Positions 4,736 through 40,216 of a stretch of 64,000 nt of DNA are shown piece after piece. The notes under the pieces were generated by a model. That model saw nothing but the letters and a program-made list of their open reading frames with translations, was not told the origin of the DNA and did not search any database. The first letter of the stretch is position 1. The number at the start of each line of letters is the position of its first letter. The stretch spans positions 1,384,501 through 1,448,500 of the forward strand of contig NZ_MUBG01000001.1 in the NCBI RefSeq assembly GCF_002022415.1. Direction: 5' to 3'. The stretch is from Bartonella sp. WD12.1. Its GTDB lineage: Bacteria > Pseudomonadota > Alphaproteobacteria > Rhizobiales > Rhizobiaceae. The translations under genes were made by a program, and so were the position numbers.

Positions 4736-6603
4736 TCACGTAATGTTAAAAAAAGGTTCTACAGCATTAATAAGAGCAGCATCTTCGCACAATGATAGCC
4801 AATTAAAAGGTGCAAGAATGCGCTGCACAGTCACTTTATGGCAACAAGAGCGATGAGAAAGCTCTGGAATATCAATGCCTTTGGCACCTAAAACCAATGG
4901 AAGAGATTGCAACGAAGGAAAATGAGGTCGTTTACGATCAACCATAGCTTCAAAATCAACCATATCCCCAATCACCTCACCCTTCTTAATTATATGAGTA
5001 TTGGAAAAATATTTTCCATACCTAAAAAACTGTTTTAAATGAACAAGATCAGCTGCACGCACTTTAAGGGCATCTCTCTCATGATTGGTGATCTGATAGC
5101 GCCCATCCCATAAAAGGGTTTGCCCAGGAAGGATGATTGCTTCTTGAATGTTTCGTGCTTCACGCCAAAAAGCAATTCCCTTTTGACTATATTCAATAAG
5201 AGACCCAGCCAAAGTAAAGCGCTTTTTTTCTAAAGAGTGGAGACACAATTTTTGATTAAGAGCATTCAATTTTTGAGATGCAAGCAAATAAGAACGGCCT
5301 CCCATTAACACAGCAAATAGCCCCACCACAAATGGAAAACCGGGATGACAGCGTAAAAAGGGCGCAGGCCTTTCAATAAAACATCGCCCATACTCAACAA
5401 CAATATCTAAGGCTAGAATCAAATCAGCAATCATCTGTGCGTATTGACGTCGTTTTAACGCAGCTTCATTGACTTTTTGAGCAACTTCGAAAAAGCTTTT
5501 AAAGCGTATAGAATGGCGCACACGTACGCGTTCAAAACGCAAATCATCATTTGTCGGATCATCAATCCACGCTATTCCTCGCAAACGCAAATAAGCGTGC
5601 AATGTGTCGCGCTTAATGCCAAGAAGTGGGCGAATCAAACGCACTTTTCGGCGCAACAATGCTTCACGCGCAATACAAGACAAACCACGTTCAATCAATT
5701 CACCATTATCTTTTAAGACACCAACGTCTTTTAATGGGCTTGTTACACCCATCTCTTCCCATGTATTATTATAATCACCCCACCCCTCCTGTTGTGAAAT
5801 ACCCGCAACCTCAACCCCACACTGTGCATCAACAGCCCCATCATCACCCTGCTCTACACCAACACCCCCCCATCCTTTGATCTTAAAGCAAAAACCTCAT
5901 CTCCCCACCCCTCCTGTTGTGAAATACCCGCAACCTCAACCCCACACTGTGCATCAACAGCCTCATCACCCTGCTCTACACGAACACCCCACCCATCCTT
6001 TGATCTTAAAGCAAAAGCCTCATCTCCCCGCCCCCCCTGTTGTGAAACACCCGCGACCTTAACCCCACACTGCGCATCAACAGCCTCATCACCCTGCTCT
6101 ATACGAACAAAAACCCCACCCTTTGATCTTAAAGCAAAAGCCCCATCACCCCGCCCCTCCTGTTGTGAAACCGCTTTATCCTTTAAGACACGTTGGCAGC
6201 GCATATAATAGGTTTCGACCTGATCATTGAGGGTGTGCCCTGTCATAATGAGCTTTGCACCCTGTCTTTCAGCTTCTTGGAACAATAAATCATACCGTGC
6301 AACACGTGCTTTTTGAGAAATATCCGTCTTTGGCTTCGTGCCTTCCCACCGCACAATGACATGCTTAATCTGATAAGCGCGACAAATCTCTGCCACCTTC
6401 TGAGCCTCACATGCTGATTCTTCACGCAATTGATGATCAACCGTAACAACAATAATCTCAGGGGGAGAAAGCAGTGTCTTAAAATAATCTTTAAGCAAAA
6501 ACAACAAAGCCAGCGAATCACCCCCACCAGAAGCTGCCACAATCAACTTCTGACAATGGGTAAAATCTGACTTCTTAAAAATTTTTGCTAATTGAATGAG
6601 CAC
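4736..6603 (-). CDS. tilS: tRNA(Ile)-lysidine synthase TilS, repeat-expanded, apparent frameshift
   Basis: Converts C34 of the CAU-anticodon tRNA(Ile) to lysidine so that AUA is read as isoleucine; normally essential. The N-terminal part (GTG start at 6603, overlapping the ybgF end by 16 nt) has the PP-loop motif SGGGDS and GHTLNDQVET; the C-terminal part (from about 5752) has the RRKVRLIRPLL region and the tRNA-binding half. Between them sit three full and one partial 41-codon repeats (SQQ...GDEAVDAQCGV) of 123 bp. The frame breaks in a run of seven G (minus strand; 5865-5871): sister repeats read GGGTGGGG there, so one base is missing. Adding one base joins both halves into a ~620-residue protein. 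An assembly error is more likely than loss of an essential gene. Confidence 0.9.
5785..6165 (-). repeat. 123-bp in-frame tandem repeat inside tilS
   Basis: The marker CTGTTGT occurs at 5789, 5914, 6037 and 6160 (spacings 125, 123, 123 bp). Each unit encodes about 41 residues containing ALRSKDG and EQGDEAVDAQCGV. The last spacing, 125, is 123 plus an in-frame triplet minus one base, which is the frameshift. The units lie between the catalytic HTLNDQVET motif and the conserved RPLL segment, a place where TilS normally has a short loop. Confidence 0.93.
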
Positions 6604-8125
6604 TGAGAACGACTCTGTTCTTGTTTAAGACGTTTACAAAAAACGCACTCTAACGTTTGGTAGTGTTTTGGAATGTCAGCAAAAACATCACAAGCCGCTT
6701 TATTTTGACCAAGAGCAGCTACACTCATTGCTAATTTTAGCAAAATTTCAGAACCATATAAGGTATCTTTATACGTATACCATACATACAAATAAACCTG
6801 CGCGGCTTCATGATAGCGTTCTTGCCCAAGTAAAGATTCTGCCAACCAAAAAACAGCATCACCAACTAAAGGATCTTGCTTATAACGCTTTTGAAAAGCA
6901 CAAAAAACTTTTTCAGCTTCAGCATAATCGGCAGAAAGAATAAAATCATAGCCCTTTTTATACAGTTTTTTAGGCAATAAGCGCTGATCTTCATCCCCAT
7001 CCACCTGCTTGGCAGCACCATTCTTTTCACCCTCCTCCCCACGCAGTACATGCTCACCATGCCTTGCTTTTATGCCATTTTTACGCTCATCACCCATACC
7101 ATCAACAGCACCACTCTTACCCCCTTTTTTACTGTGCTTTTTTTCCTGACTGTGCTCCTTATTGTGCTTGCCACCTTGAATCGCTTCATCTTGGCTTCCA
7201 CCTTGCCCCTTAATCACCTGAGCTGTCTCCTCTAAATAAGGATTATTCGAAGGGCAATAATAACGAAAAGAGCCCTCTTGATTAAAAAGATCAAGCAAAT
7301 GTTGTCGAAACAAACGCTCTTCTCTCTCTCCTCGTTTATCCCGCTCTAGCACCCCCTGTATCGCACGCAAAAGAAGATCCAAATCTTTGTCTTGAAGAAA
7401 AGTATCCTGCCGATCCACAGCCACCTTTTGCGCCGCATCTACACTGTAAACAAAAAGTGGGCCCATACTCGGGGGAAGAGATGGACCCACGTTTTGGGCA
7501 ACCAATGTGCCCAAACTCTGATCAGAAGATGGACCCCTGCTCGGGGGGAGAGGCGGGTCCATACTATGGGCGGACGATATGCCCAGACTCTGACCAGAAA
7601 ACGGGCCCACACTCGGGGGAAGAGTTGGACCCACGCTTTGGGCAACCAATGTGCCCAAACTCTGGTCAGAAGATGGACCCCTGCTCGGGGGGAGAGGCGG
7701 GTCCATACTGTGGGCGGACGATATGCCCAGACTCTGACCAGAAGACGGGTCCACACTCGGGGGAAGAGATGGACCCATACTTTGGGCACTCAATATGCCC
7801 AAATTGAGATCAGAAAATGGATCCATACTCGAAGGGGGGGAGATGGACCCACACTTTGGGCACCCAATGTACCCAAACTCTGATCAAAAGCCGAATCCAT
7901 ACTCTGGGGGAGAGATGGATCCATGCTGTGGGCAACCCATGCGCCCAAACTGTGACCATAATATGAATTTAAATCGCGATCAGAAAATTGAATAACATTT
8001 TGAGGTGTACTTTGAACAGGCCAAAAGAGACAAACCACCACAATTAATGTAAAAACGCAAGCATGCCAGAATGATAATTGATACAAAAAACTAGCTTTCC
8101 AGCTCTTTTTGCGCCCAGCATGCAA
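6588..8125 (-). CDS. cpoB: Tol-Pal accessory protein YbgF/CpoB, repeat-rich, apparent frameshift
   Basis: Periplasmic coordinator of peptidoglycan synthesis with outer-membrane constriction. The C-terminal ~130 residues form the typical TPR block (KGYDFILSADYAEAEKVF..., GDAVFWLAESLLGQERYHEAA). The N terminus at 8125 uses TTG with AGGGGAG 8 nt upstream and encodes a basic stretch plus a hydrophobic signal segment (HACVFTLIVVVCLFW). Between them are proline/serine-rich repeats (PPSxGPSSxQSLG) instead of the usual coiled coil, then a Gly/Lys-rich linker. The frame breaks at a run of seven G on the plus strand (7834-7840); eight would restore it. Repaired length is about 512 residues. It lies between pal and tilS, as in other alphaproteobacteria. 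Confidence 0.85.
7450..7940 (-). repeat. Pro/Ser-rich tandem repeats in ybgF
   Basis: A nested repeat: a ~24-residue motif (PPSxGPSSxQSLGxxxAQS) alternates in two variants, making a 48-residue (144-bp) higher-order unit that is present about twice almost perfectly and then in decayed form toward the gene start. All other frames also stay open through this tract, which produces long spurious frames on the plus strand. Confidence 0.85.
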
Positions 8126-19818: not shown

Positions 19819-20420
19819 AACCCTCGCCACCACTTTAAAACCAGCTTCTCACTACCACCAGCGCTTTCAGCTCTGTCTCCCCCTCCCTCACCCCTTTAAT
19901 GCCTATCCTCCACCAACGCTCCCCCAAACTCCTGCCCCTCTTCTCCCAAGCCATCTCCCCAATCTTCCCAACCCCCATCCTCTCACATTATAATACCCCA
20001 CCTTCTACCAACACAGCTCAATCTTGCTTTTAAATCTCGCTTCCATCAATGCAAGCTTCATGTTCCTCCATACTCTTGCAAAAACGCCTCCACCAACGTT
20101 TCCCCCAAACTCCTGCTCCTCTTCTTCCAAGCCATCTCCCCAATCTTCCAAGCCCCCACCCTTTCACATCATAATGCCTCCCCTCCACTAACACAGCCCA
20201 ATCTTGCTCTTAAATCTCGCTTCCATCAATGCAAGCTTCCTACTCCTCCACACTCTTGCCAGACACACCCTCCACCAACGCTCCCATCCCTCGCCACGTT
20301 AAAGCCTTTCATTCTTTCCATCCATCCTCAACTTCCTGCCCTTTCCCATCATTTTCAAACCTGTTAAAACCCTCGCCACCACTTTAAAAACCAGCTCCTC
20401 ACCATCAGCGCTTTCAACTC
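19815..20420. repeat. ~180-bp tandem repeat bracketed by ~60-bp direct repeats
   Basis: CTCCACCAAC-type landmarks recur at about 19909, 20089 and 20271 (period 180-182), with units carrying CCCCAAACTCCTG, CAAGCCATCTCCCCAATCTTCC and TCTCGCTTCCATCAATGCAAGC. The whole block is bracketed by a ~60-bp direct repeat starting TTAAAACCCTCGCCACCACTT at about 19816 and again at about 20363. The first copy begins inside the rcdA stop region. The plus strand is C-rich and nearly G-free. Confidence 0.88.
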
Positions 20421-31184: not shown

Positions 31185-32192
31185 TTACAAGGTTTTGGCA
31201 AAAGCCACAGCAGTATCAGCCATGCGGTTTGAAAAGCCCCATTCATTATCGTACCAAACAAGAACGCGGCAAAGCTTACCATCAACAACTTTGGTTTGCT
31301 CAGCTTGAACAATGGCCGAATGCGGATTATAATTAAAATCACTGCTGACAAGTTTTTCTTCTGTATAATCTAAAATTCCCTTAAGCTGGCCTTGCGCAGC
31401 ATCACAAATGGCAGCATTAATCTCTTCAACAGTTGTGAAGCGCTGAGCCATAAAGGTCAAATCAACAACAGAAACATTAGGCGTTGGAACACGAATAGCC
31501 ACCCCATCTAACAAACCTTTTAATTCTGGCAAAACCAATCCCACTGCCTTGGCAGCCCCTGTTGATGTAGGGATCATAGAAAGAGCAGCAGCACGAGAAC
31601 GGTAAAGATCACGGTGCATTGTATCCAAAACAGGCTGATCCCCCGTATAGGAATGGATTGTCGTCATAAAGCCCTTTTCAATGCCAACAGCTTTGTGGAG
31701 CACTTGCGCAACAGGTGCCAAACAATTGGTTGTGCAAGAAGCATTCGACACCACCTGATGTTCTTTACTTAAAGTCTGGTGGTTAACCCCATACACCACA
31801 GTCAAATCAGCATCATTAGAAGGTGCAGAAATAAGAACACGCTTTGCACCCGCCACCAAATGAGCACTGGCTTTATCACGCTCGGTAAAAAAACCTGTAC
31901 ATTCCAGAGCAACATCAATACCCAAATCCCTCCAAGGTAAATGCGCCGGGTCACGCTGTGCTGTTACCTGAATCAAACCATACCCAACATCAAGTGCATC
32001 ACCCACCACCTTAACAGGCGCACCAAAACGCCCGTGCACTGAATCATAGCGTAATAAATGGGCATTGGTTTCTACAGGACCTAAATCATTGATCGCAACA
32101 ACCTCAATATCTTTGCGTCCACTTTCAACAATAGCACGTAAGATAGAACGCCCAATACGACCAAATCCATTAATTGCAACGCGAGTACTCAT
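31185..32192 (-). CDS. gap: Glyceraldehyde-3-phosphate dehydrogenase, type I
   Basis: Oxidative phosphorylation of glyceraldehyde-3-phosphate. 335 residues with NAD-binding GFGRIGR, catalytic cysteine C153 in [12 protein letters not shown], and [12 protein letters not shown]. The acidic residue after the second strand (AINDLG) suits NAD rather than NADP. Its ATG overlaps the tkt stop by 4 nt (ATGA). Confidence 0.97.
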
Positions 32193-34194
32193 TTGATTTT
32201 TCCCTCATTGATTTTTTTCAATCTTTCTTCAACAACAGCAACTACATTTTCACATGTAATTCCAAAATGCATATAAAGGTCATCCATCGGTGCACTTGCA
32301 CCAAATCCTTCCATACCAATAAACACACCATCACTGCCAATAAAATAATCCCACCCTTGCCGGACAGCCGCCTCAACGGCAATTTTAAGGGGCGCATCAC
32401 CAATTAAAGCATTTTGATAGGAAGCAGATTGTTCAAAAAACAGCTCAAAACAAGGCACAGAAACCACACGCGTTGGAATACCCTTCTCTTCTAAAATAGC
32501 ATGAGCTTTTACAACAATTTCCACTTCTGAACCTGAAGCAAAAAGGGTAACTTGAGCCGTATCACTTGCCATCAATAATTCATAAGCACCAAGCATACAC
32601 AAATTGTCTTCTTTATAATCCCGGCGCAAAAGCGGTAAATTTTGCCTACTTAAAGCCAAAGTAGAAGGCGTCTTGCGTGCTTTCAAAGCCAATTGCCAAC
32701 ATTCCACCGTTTCCATAGCATCAGCAGGCCTGAAAACAAAATGATTAGGAAGCGCGCGCAAAGCAGCCAAATGCTCTACTGGCTGATGAGTTGGCCCATC
32801 CTCACCAAGACCAATGGAATCATGGGTCATTACATAAATTACCCGCAACCCCATTAAGGAAGACAAACGCATGGCAGGACGCACATAGTCAGAAAAACAT
32901 AAAAAGTCCCACCATAAGGAATGAACCCTCCATAAAGAGCAAGGCCATTCATCACTGCACCCATTGCGTGCTCGCGAATACCATAGTGCAAATAACGGCC
33001 TGAAAAATCCTCAGCAGTAATGCTTTTCATCTGGCTTGTTTTTGTACAGTTGGAACCGGTTAAATCAGCAGAACCACCAATGGTTTCAACAACCACCCCG
33101 TTAATAACTTCAAGAGCCATTTCAGAAGCTTTACGCGTTGCAACACGCGGACAATCTAGAACCAATTGTTTTTTATATTCATCAAGCACACTCTCAAAGT
33201 TACTTACAAGATCGCCACGCATCAACCGTTCAAATTCAGCCCGCTTTGACACAGGTAAAGCAGAAAGCTGTGCTTCCCATTTTTTGCGCTTTTTTGCAGC
33301 ACTAAGACCTGCCAAACGCCAACTATCAAGAATATCAGCAGGAACAACAAAAGGCTCTGGTGCCCAACCTAAAGCTTTACGGGTTGCAGCAATTTCTTCT
33401 GCCCCCAAAGGTGACCCATGAACCTTATTGGTGCCCCCCTTATGAGGTGCCCCAAAACCAATAATTGTTTTACACGCAATGAGAGTAGGTTTATCAGAAG
33501 TTTTTGCCGTCTCAATGGCTCGTGCCAATGCACTTTGATTATGCCCATTGACCTTAATGGTATTCCAACCACACGCTTTAAAACGCGCCACTTGGTCTGT
33601 ACTATCTGTAAGAGAGATAGCCCCATCGATCGATATATCATTATCATCCCAAAATACAATCAGCTTATTTAGTTTTAAATGACCAGCAAGCGAAATTGCT
33701 TCTTGGGCTATGCCTTCCATTAAACATCCATCGCCGACTAAAACATAAGTATAATGGTTGATCAAATCACCAAAACGTGCGTTTAACAAACGCTCACCCA
33801 ATGCCATTCCCACAGCATTGGCAAGCCCCTGCCCAAGCGGCCCGGTGGTTGTCTCAACTCCTGCACCATGACCATATTCTGGATGCCCAGCAATTTTAGA
33901 ACCCATTTGGCGAAAATTGCGGATATCATCAAGAGAGATATCTTCATAGCCTGAAAGATACATTAAAGCATAAAGCAACATTGACCCATGCCCAGCCGAT
34001 AAAATAAAGCGATCGCGGTTGGGCCAACGAGGTTTTTTGGGGTCATGAACTAAAAATTTTGTGTAAAGAACTGTAGCAATATCAGCTGCCCCCATTGGCA
34101 AGCCAGGGTGACCAGACTGTGCTTTTTCAATCGCATCAATAGCAAGAAAGCGAATAGCATTGGCCATTTGATTTTGTTGTTCAGTATTTGTCAT
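32189..34194 (-). CDS. tkt: Transketolase, apparent frameshift
   Basis: Thiamine-diphosphate enzyme of the pentose phosphate pathway. The first part shows [26 protein letters not shown] and the ThDP motif [13 protein letters not shown]; the second part shows [26 protein letters not shown]. They are in different frames because a T run in GTTTTTCT (minus strand; 32895-32899) is one base short: GTTTTTTCT yields the expected [15 protein letters not shown]. Repaired length about 668 residues, normal for the family. A real disruption is unlikely given the coupled downstream gap gene. Confidence 0.93.
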
Positions 34195-37978: not shown

Positions 37979-39821
37979 TTAACTTAAGCAATTGTCTTTT
38001 TCAATAGCTTCACGTAAAAGTTCAAGATCCAACCACTCTTCTTCTTTTTGTGTGCACAAATTCTTTTTCTCTTCCAATGCCGCAGATAAATACTCAAAAC
38101 GAACCTGATCACAGTTATAAAGTGCAGGATCAGACAATTCTTTTTCAAGGTTTCTGATCTCATTTTGCAAAAGCGTTATGTCTTCAGGCAAGTGCTCCAG
38201 CGCATAAACTTGCTTATAAGACAATTTGCGCGTCGTCACTTTTGAGGAAGAAGCTGTTTGTTTTTTCCGATCACGTGCAATAGGCTTTTGCAATTCTTGA
38301 CGCTGCGAAAGCTCAGCGTGCTTTTTTGTGCCATCATATCACTATAACCACCAGCATAGAGGGTCCAGTGCCCATTACCTTCAGGTGCCAAAACATGAGA
38401 CACGGTTCGATCTAAAAAATCCCTATCATGGCTAACCACGATCACTGTCCCTGCAAAATCAGCAATAAGTTCTTGGAGCAAATCCAATGTTTCCATATCA
38501 AGATCATTGGTTGGTTCATCTAAAATCAAACAATTTGCAGGCTGTAATAAAAGCCGCGCTAACATTAAACGGGCTCTTTCCCCCCCTGATAATTCCTTAA
38601 TAGGGGTATAAGCTTGCTCGGGTAAAAACAAACAATCTTTAAGATAAGAAACAACATGGCGCTGTTGCCCATTAATGAGCACACTATCACCCCTGCCACC
38701 TATTAAATAATGTGCTAAAGTTTCTTCCTCATTTAAAATCCGCTGTTGATCAAGCAAAGCCATGGCCACATTAACCCCATGCTTAATCACCCCACTGTCT
38801 GCCAACTCGCGACCAATCAAAACAGAAAGCAGCGTCGTTTTTCCAACACCATTGGAGCCTACAATACCAATCTTGTCACCACGCTGCAGACGCAATGAAA
38901 ATCTTTAACAATAACGCGCTCACCATAAGACTTAAAAATCCGCTTTGCTTCAAGCACCAATTGACCACAATCTTGTCGTTCAGAAACCGCAAAAAGCGCG
39001 TGCTCTGCAGGCCCTTTATAGCCTCGATGAAGCTTTCGCATCTCCTTTAACGCACCCAAACGCCGTTCATTACGCTTGCGCCGTGCGCTTACTCCATAGC
39101 GTACCCATTGCTCTTCACGAACAATCTGACGCTCCAATTTATGATGATCACGAGCCTCTTTTTCCAGCTCTTTATCACGCCAACTTTCAAATGCAGAAAA
39201 ACGCTTTTCAACCCTTTTAGTCACACCCCGATCAAGCCATACTGTCGAATGTGCCACCGTTTCTAAAAATCGCCGATCATGCGAAATGACAACAATAGCT
39301 GAACGTAAAGAACACAAAATACCTTCAAGCCACTCAATGGTTGATACATCAAGATGATTCGTCGGCTCATCTAATAAAAGAATATCTGGCTTTGCTGCAA
39401 TCGCCTGCAGCAAGGATACACACCGCTTTTCTCCACCAGAAAGCGTTGCTAATTTCTCAGTCCCTACAAAACCAAGATCTCTAAGAAGGGTCTGCACCCA
39501 TTGAACATCATACCCATCGTTTAAACCAGCCTCTACACAAGTATAAACATCATCACCCCCTGAAAAATCAGAATCAACTCCTGAAAAATCAGAGCTTTGT
39601 GATACATAACGCATACAAGCACGGGGGTGGTGAAAAATTTCACCCTCACTGGGCTCTAACAGACCAGCTGCAATTTTTAAGAGCGTTGACTTTCCACACC
39701 CATTGCGGCCAACAAGTGCAATACGCTCCCCCTGCCCAACCGATAAGCAAGCCTGATTGAGCAAAGGGGTTGTTCCGAAAGTTAAAACAATACGATCAAG
39801 TCGTAAAAGCGGTACACCCAT
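37979..39821 (-). CDS. ABC-F ATPase (Uup-like), two apparent frameshifts
   Basis: Soluble protein with two ABC domains, of the ABC-F family that acts on ribosomes or on DNA structures. Domain 1 has Walker A GRNGCGKST, LSGGEKR and LLLDEPTNHLDV; domain 2 has GSNGVGKTT, LSGGERARLM and LILDEPTNDLDM; a C-terminal coiled coil (LPEDITLLQNEIRNLEKEL) marks the Uup subgroup. The frame breaks at 38898-38901 (T run, minus strand, one short) and 38322-38327 (A run, minus strand, one short); one base at each restores VKDFSLRLQRGDK and AQKKHAELSQRQELQ. ATG 39821 overlaps the preceding lipoprotein stop (TAATG). Repaired length about 614 residues. Confidence 0.9.
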
Positions 39822-40216
39822 TAATAAGGTTGTACAGGTTGTGGGCAAGGAGCCTGATAAAGCTGACCTCTCACATCACGATAGGTGCATAATTGTGGTA
39901 CAGGTTGCGGACAAGGAGCTTGATAGAGTTGACCTCTCACATCACGATAGGTGCACAATGGTACCTGCTGCTGAGACATTTGCTTTTGCTGTTTTTTCTG
40001 AACAGCAGCAGCACCTGTTACTGTACCTGCAATAGCACCAATTGCTGCACCTGGAACCGCTCCAGAACTGCTTCCACTAATCGCTGTGCCGGCCAAAGCA
40101 CCTAATGCAGCACCACCAACACCATATCCTGCAACTGTTTGTTCGTTCGTTGTACAAGCTACCGAACTTACCCCAACGATTGCAACAACCGTCATTGTTA
40201 AAATTGATTTTAACAT
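39821..40216 (-). CDS. Small glycine-zipper lipoprotein (array copy 1, intact)
   Basis: A 131-residue predicted lipoprotein: signal MLKSILTMTVVAIVG with lipobox SSVAC, then a glycine-zipper stretch (GYGVGGAALGALAGTAISG...GAAIGAIAGTVTGAA), a Gln/Lys-rich segment, and two copies of a 22-residue C-terminal repeat, CTYRDVRGQLYQAPCPQPV. It resembles SlyB/17-kDa-antigen type outer-membrane lipoproteins. Its stop overlaps the ABC-F start. It is the only clearly intact member of a four-copy array running to 41.5 kb. Confidence 0.83.
   Translation of the reverse strand: MLKSILTMTVVAIVGVSSVACTTNEQTVAGYGVGGAALGALAGTAISGSSSGAVPGAAIGAIAGTVTGAAAVQKKQQKQMSQQQVPLCTYRDVRGQLYQAPCPQPVPQLCTYRDVRGQLYQAPCPQPVQPY

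Follow-up and report, generated by a model that had tools for sequence, protein, structure and literature searches.

The window analysed here is a 64-kb stretch of the genome labelled G000, and all positions are those of the whole window. On its minus strand lies a tilS gene with a large insert and a tandem array between two conserved motifs of the encoded enzyme:

6603-5854, minus strand: N-part of tilS, an open frame with the SGGGDS PP-loop and HTLNDQVET (ORF list; PF01171 positions 1-120, 3.2e-29, 101.9 bits)
6237-6211, minus strand: HTLNDQVET motif, directly before the insert (position check)
5690-6198, minus strand: TilS insert of 509 nt, between ...DQVETYYMR and RGLSC (frames, positions; the equivalent site holds 87 aa in G029 and 83 aa in G012, both intact relatives)
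5774-6171, minus strand: tandem array (TRF, direct repeats, unit alignment)
6170-6048 (123 bp), 6047-5925 (123 bp) and 5924-5800 (125 bp), plus a partial copy, minus strand: array units in coding order (unit alignment)
5857-5896, minus strand: zone open in both frames, where the frame changes, with a seven-C run on the plus strand (frame analysis)
5896-4736, minus strand: C-part of tilS, open in its own frame and holding RGLSC, RPLL and the C-terminal part; its first ATG lies at 5752 (frames; PF01171 positions 124-181, 1.8e-11)
5632-5621, minus strand: RPLL motif, after the insert (position check)

The identification of the gene as tilS, made in the original prediction, holds, since both parts match PF01171. 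The 123-bp tandem repeat that had been placed between HTLNDQVET and RPLL was recovered by TRF as an array with a period of 123 bp, 3.2 copies, 91% matches and a score of 625, made up of three units and the partial copy. The units stand head to tail and are 89 to 96% identical to one another, in keeping with the minisatellite it was taken for. It is also correct that the insert lies inside the catalytic PP-loop domain, at a site where a short loop is usual in other TilS. Three details have to be revised. The repeat was described as in-frame, but its third unit has 125 bp and the 509 nt of the insert are no multiple of three. The domain was thought to be left undisrupted, whereas in the present assembly the array divides the gene into two frames. 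The gain of about 140 residues was too low, as the insert corresponds to approximately 170 codons against a loop of 6 residues in 14 Bartonella genomes.

TilS was found in all 71 Bartonella genomes of our genus sample, in which each locus was read. The loop between ...DQVETYxMR and RGLxC has those 6 residues in 14 genomes, and the remaining 57 contain the insert, with an unbroken frame in 55 of them (the exceptions are G000 and its sister species G038). The short-loop genomes form one clade, which we take to be the bee-gut type, and the insert is found in all 57 genomes of the other, larger clade. Its site is identical in these 57 genomes, the R being kept and followed by the insert and then by RGL. 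Insert length varies from 39 to 201 aa, with a median of 61 and 33 distinct values in the 54 genomes measured. G000 and G038, both lacking one continuous frame, were excluded from the length and dN/dS sets. G001, where the insert was seen on reading, is absent from the sets used for lengths, TRF, the tree and dN/dS (its RGLSCISRE falls outside the pattern). B. melophagi K-2C shows 96% identity over the TilS N-domain. The alignment with other Bartonella TilS, proposed as a check of the original prediction, thus reveals an insert that is common to the relatives but differs in length and repetition, not one conserved, non-repeated insert.

TRF arrays with a period of at least 60 bp were found in 9 of the 56 Bartonella sequences examined, with periods of 60 bp (G028, G040 and G068), 63 bp (G018 and G050), 122 bp (G038, broken), 123 bp (G000 and G052) and 219 bp (G027). 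They occupy at least 6 separate places on the tree of the C-part, which was read by eye with no formal count. Some related species have inserts of 61, 81, 101, 121 and 201 aa, that is, in steps of one 20-residue unit. In G027 (L070), the 219-bp duplication takes in the catalytic HTLNDQVET, and the protein has this motif twice.

Within the clade of the window, one unit is found in G012 and in G029, two in G038 and three in G000, so the suggested variation in copy number does exist, here among species with one genome each. The units are 89 to 96% identical within G000 and 97% within G038, and 82 to 88% identical between the two genomes. Being more alike within each genome than between them, they either grew after G000 and G038 parted or have been homogenised since. 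An array that is as such an assembly artefact is unlikely, because the sister species carries an array too, with unit variants of its own. In the one-unit G029 the start of the unit is partly repeated at a distance of 123 bp, and a partial copy of this kind could have been the seed of the duplications.

Other arrays are present in the window, with further minisatellites at 1240-2227, 7459-7955, 19907-20285 and 39832-39959. Including that of tilS, there are 5 arrays in the 64-kb window and none in 100 kb elsewhere in G000 (TRF period of at least 30 bp, score of at least 150). In G038, 80 kb around the corresponding zone gave 11 array rows. The gene adjoining tilS (6588-7826, minus strand), presumably of CpoB type, has its own 72/144-bp array in the N-part and, against G012 and G029, cannot be read in a single frame. 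The plus strand of the window is also asymmetric in its runs, with 59 runs of exactly five C vs 12 of five G, and the corresponding numbers for the G038 stretch are 154 and 16.

Outside Bartonella, two samples were inspected. The first comprised 120 other Hyphomicrobiales genomes, which yielded 112 tabulated N-domains with an undivided match (the other 8 had a weak, absent or broken-up match), and the second covered the alphaproteobacterial class, with 142 genomes, 137 matched and 134 N-domains tabulated. No insert of the Bartonella type was found in the 112 Hyphomicrobiales or in the 134 further alphaproteobacterial N-domains. Only 1 of the 112 exceeds the profile by over 15 residues (G109, +31), with the excess located further downstream than the insert site, and none of the 134 of the class sample does. 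The insert is therefore confined to one Bartonella clade in the samples examined. R-G-S-G is common at the insert site in TilS. An R-[G/S]-x-G loop occupies it in 25 of 33 outside loci, and some loci have K or H for R. In 3 of 30 Hyphomicrobiales loci, one of them (G175) from the family of the window, we found another sequence of similar length, neither R-G-S-G nor the insert, which suggests that the loop could already vary before the insert appeared. Two apparent tilS splits outside Bartonella, in G290 (a run of N) and G158, were discarded, having undetermined bases at the site.

Pairs with a core dS of 0.03-0.6 and a length difference of at most 3 aa were used for dN/dS (104 pairs, with 14 non-overlapping ones pooled). 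In the 14 pairs, pooled dN and dS are 0.195 and 0.320 for the insert vs 0.050 and 0.258 for the core. The pooled dN/dS of the insert is about 0.6, and its amino-acid sites evolve at approximately 4 times the core rate. Protein constraint on the insert is thus far weaker than on the remainder of TilS. Its ends are conserved (QRLQK... at the start, ...YE at the end) and its middle is without conservation. The dN/dS value, the conserved ends and a length that is never below 39 aa indicate that the insert is not wholly free and hint at some role. A functional adaptation, for instance in substrate selection or regulation, with adaptive length variation, would fit these ends and this minimum, as well as the presence of the insert throughout the clade. 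Against it stand the same dN/dS of about 0.6, the unconserved middle, units that differ by clade and the predicted disorder, and we consider such an adaptation quite unlikely.

This predicted disorder comes from AlphaFold2 models of two intact proteins, the kind of structure prediction that had been proposed to see whether the repeat loops out. Residues 141-234 of G029 (539 aa) and 154-352 of G040 (638 aa) have pLDDT below 50, and most residues outside the loop score higher, although 129-139, 238-243 and 265-282 of G029 are also below 50. The models are shallow, with 34 and 32 sequences and pTM of 0.52 and 0.58. In a fold search with the G029 model, six TilS chains rank at the top with low TM-scores (0.25-0.27 over the query).

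The reading frame of tilS in the window is broken within the array. The ORF of the N-part ends with a stop at 5854-5856, inside the repeats, and the C-part is open only in a different frame, from 5896 on, so that the two frames overlap within the array. R-P-L(L) and the C-terminal part are present, yet not in the frame of the PP-loop. In G038, tilS is broken twice, at the array and in the PP-loop, and the broken stretches contain G-runs of six and seven. The most likely cause of the break in the window, we suggest, is an indel introduced by sequencing or assembly of a G-rich repeat, the main alternative being a recent real lesion, which is possible.

A real break would mean that tilS is degrading or split, either as a pseudogene or as two polypeptides that reassemble, the latter being conceivable because the break falls in the disordered loop. 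It would agree with the presence of a break in the array in each of the two sister species, G000 and G038, against intact genes in G012 and G029, and with the position of the break in the part of TilS most tolerant of change. However, both parts of the gene are open across their conserved stretches and remain close to the intact G029 (89% identity for the N-part and 87% for the C-part), and the first listed start of the C-part, the ATG at 5752, has no obvious spaced Shine-Dalgarno sequence by eye. The tRNA genes and the further split genes described below also speak against a real break, which we regard as unlikely.

Where the two frames overlap, the coding strand has a run of seven G. The run could act as a contingency switch, with slippage of DNA, RNA polymerase or the ribosome restoring the frame in part of the population, and the G-runs of six and seven in G038 would suit such a switch. 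If true, the level of TilS and the decoding of AUA would be tunable. On the other hand, the single unit of the intact G029 gene has no G-run at the corresponding place, and about 11% of random window zones as long as the frame overlap contain a run of at least five G or C. By eye, the sequence is not a canonical slippery heptamer, and for an essential gene the off state would kill the cell or carry a very high cost. A switch seems very doubtful.

The need for TilS was considered through the tRNA genes and codon use. G000 has 38 tRNA matches, of which 37 were read, and four have the anticodon CAT. Two of these are identical and look like initiators, and another resembles tRNA-Ile2 by sequence. 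A tRNA with the anticodon TAT, considered as a replacement for TilS, was rejected, as none occurs among the 37 of 38 matches that were read. AUA accounts for 7.9 of every 1000 codons in 48 uncurated window ORFs of at least 150 aa. The retained CAT tRNAs, the lack of TAT among those 37 and this use of AUA speak against a real break. TilS is termed essential in one publication (PMC10128029), and another reports a lysidine-type signal at C34 of the B. henselae tRNA-Ile(CAU) (PMC10965804). B. henselae presumably carries the TilS insert.

Other frame breaks in the assemblies were counted as a control, comparing window ORFs with proteins of relatives and dropping ORFs shorter than 120 aa, cover below 75% and matches below 70% identity. 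With G012 proteins, 3 of 21 window genes need more than one frame (tilS, its array-bearing neighbour and an unknown gene at 25.2-26.3 kb), and with G029 proteins this holds for 1 of 14 (tilS). With G038 proteins, 3 of 29 are split, namely the same unknown gene, the transketolase gene and that of a Uup-type ABC-F ATPase with two frame changes. The last two are located as follows:

32192-34194 and 37982-39848: transketolase gene (tkt) and Uup-type ABC-F ATPase gene (uup), both apparently split (frame comparison, relatives intact)

Both tkt and uup could be compared with G038 alone, itself a poor assembly. A further 100 kb of G000 outside the window gave 2 split genes among 56 when tested with G012 proteins and 1 among 46 with G029 proteins. 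Of the former two, recJ is the sole clear case, the second being also split against G029 and apparently G012's own matter. The split recJ, which is intact in relatives, lies in the 690-710 kb stretch (L148), a placement that is probable. Uup and RecJ are linked to repeat stability, and their splits, if true, would be curious given this link.

The relatives differ in the frequency of such breaks. G012 has none in the tilS zone (0 of 14 with G029 proteins, 0 of 45 with G038 proteins) and single breaks elsewhere (1 of 58 and 1 of 50 tested). In G038, comparison with G012 proteins shows 7 of 42 genes to be split and comparison with G029 proteins 4 of 14, and since so many of its other genes are split, the double break in its tilS weighs little. 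Since the window holds several of the breaks seen in G000 and the 100 kb elsewhere one clear case, the break in tilS may be real. It is judged a likely artefact because splits also affect transketolase, uup and recJ, no TAT tRNA occurs among 37 of the 38 matches and AUA use is normal. A genuine split, with TilS working as two chains joined via the disordered loop or rescued by slippage at the G-run, so that a minisatellite sets the reading of AUA, is improbable, and for a broken essential gene an artefact is more likely than a mechanism.

The reading that we favour, with a probability of roughly two in three, is that of a length-variable, permissive loop in a working TilS, the break in the window being most likely an indel. 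The loop would be directed away from the fold and tolerated rather than used. The loop length may change through tandem duplications that arise when short direct repeats slip or recombine unequally, and selection would mainly purge changes that break the frame, because reading AUA needs TilS. The array of the window would have reached three units in this way, probably after the split from the sister species.

The original prediction had likened the insert to the palindromic coding elements of Rickettsia. These elements are inserted in conserved protein genes and mostly keep the frame, and an in-frame insertion in a housekeeping gene is an outward likeness to them. The comparison does not extend further: no inverted pair was found within the array, RNA folding of the array strand is no better than that of shuffles (z 0.90), and the 123-bp unit was found at tilS alone, with no copy away from it, in the four genomes searched. 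The insert occupies a single site in the 57 genomes. A mobile coding element of this type is hardly credible, and the Rickettsia-type candidate, with no palindrome and no spread to other loci, was set aside.

In the literature on TilS or mesJ in Bartonella, or on repeats in housekeeping genes, the loop is undescribed in the titles and abstract openings among the matches listed. The interval from HTLNDQVET to RPLL is nearly constant in length in the other alphaproteobacteria tabulated and varies more than fivefold between species of one Bartonella clade. The Bartonella loop lengths thus offer a natural series to address the function of the loop and how an array keeps its frame in an indispensable gene. 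The tilS loop may also be usable as a strain marker.

Compared with known systems, the protein shares with TilS (PF01171, TIGR02432; PDB 3a2k, 2e21 and 1ni5) the SGGxDS PP-loop, H-T-x-N-D-Q-x-E-T, RPLL and the C-terminal part, and the best sequence and fold matches of the intact G029 protein are solved TilS structures. Relative to the TilS of short-loop Bartonella, the insert clade has 33 to 195 more residues after HTLNDQVET. The tilS unit differs from the Rickettsia palindromic elements in being neither palindromic nor dispersed and in occupying one locus. It is closer to the coding minisatellites (VNTRs) of bacteria, with which it shares head-to-tail units, a copy number that differs between close relatives and, where the gene is unbroken, long periods divisible by three. 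Bacterial coding VNTR loci are usually found in surface proteins or spacers. Unlike these, the tilS array sits in the catalytic domain of a housekeeping enzyme, at a site that has been hit in several lineages with different units.
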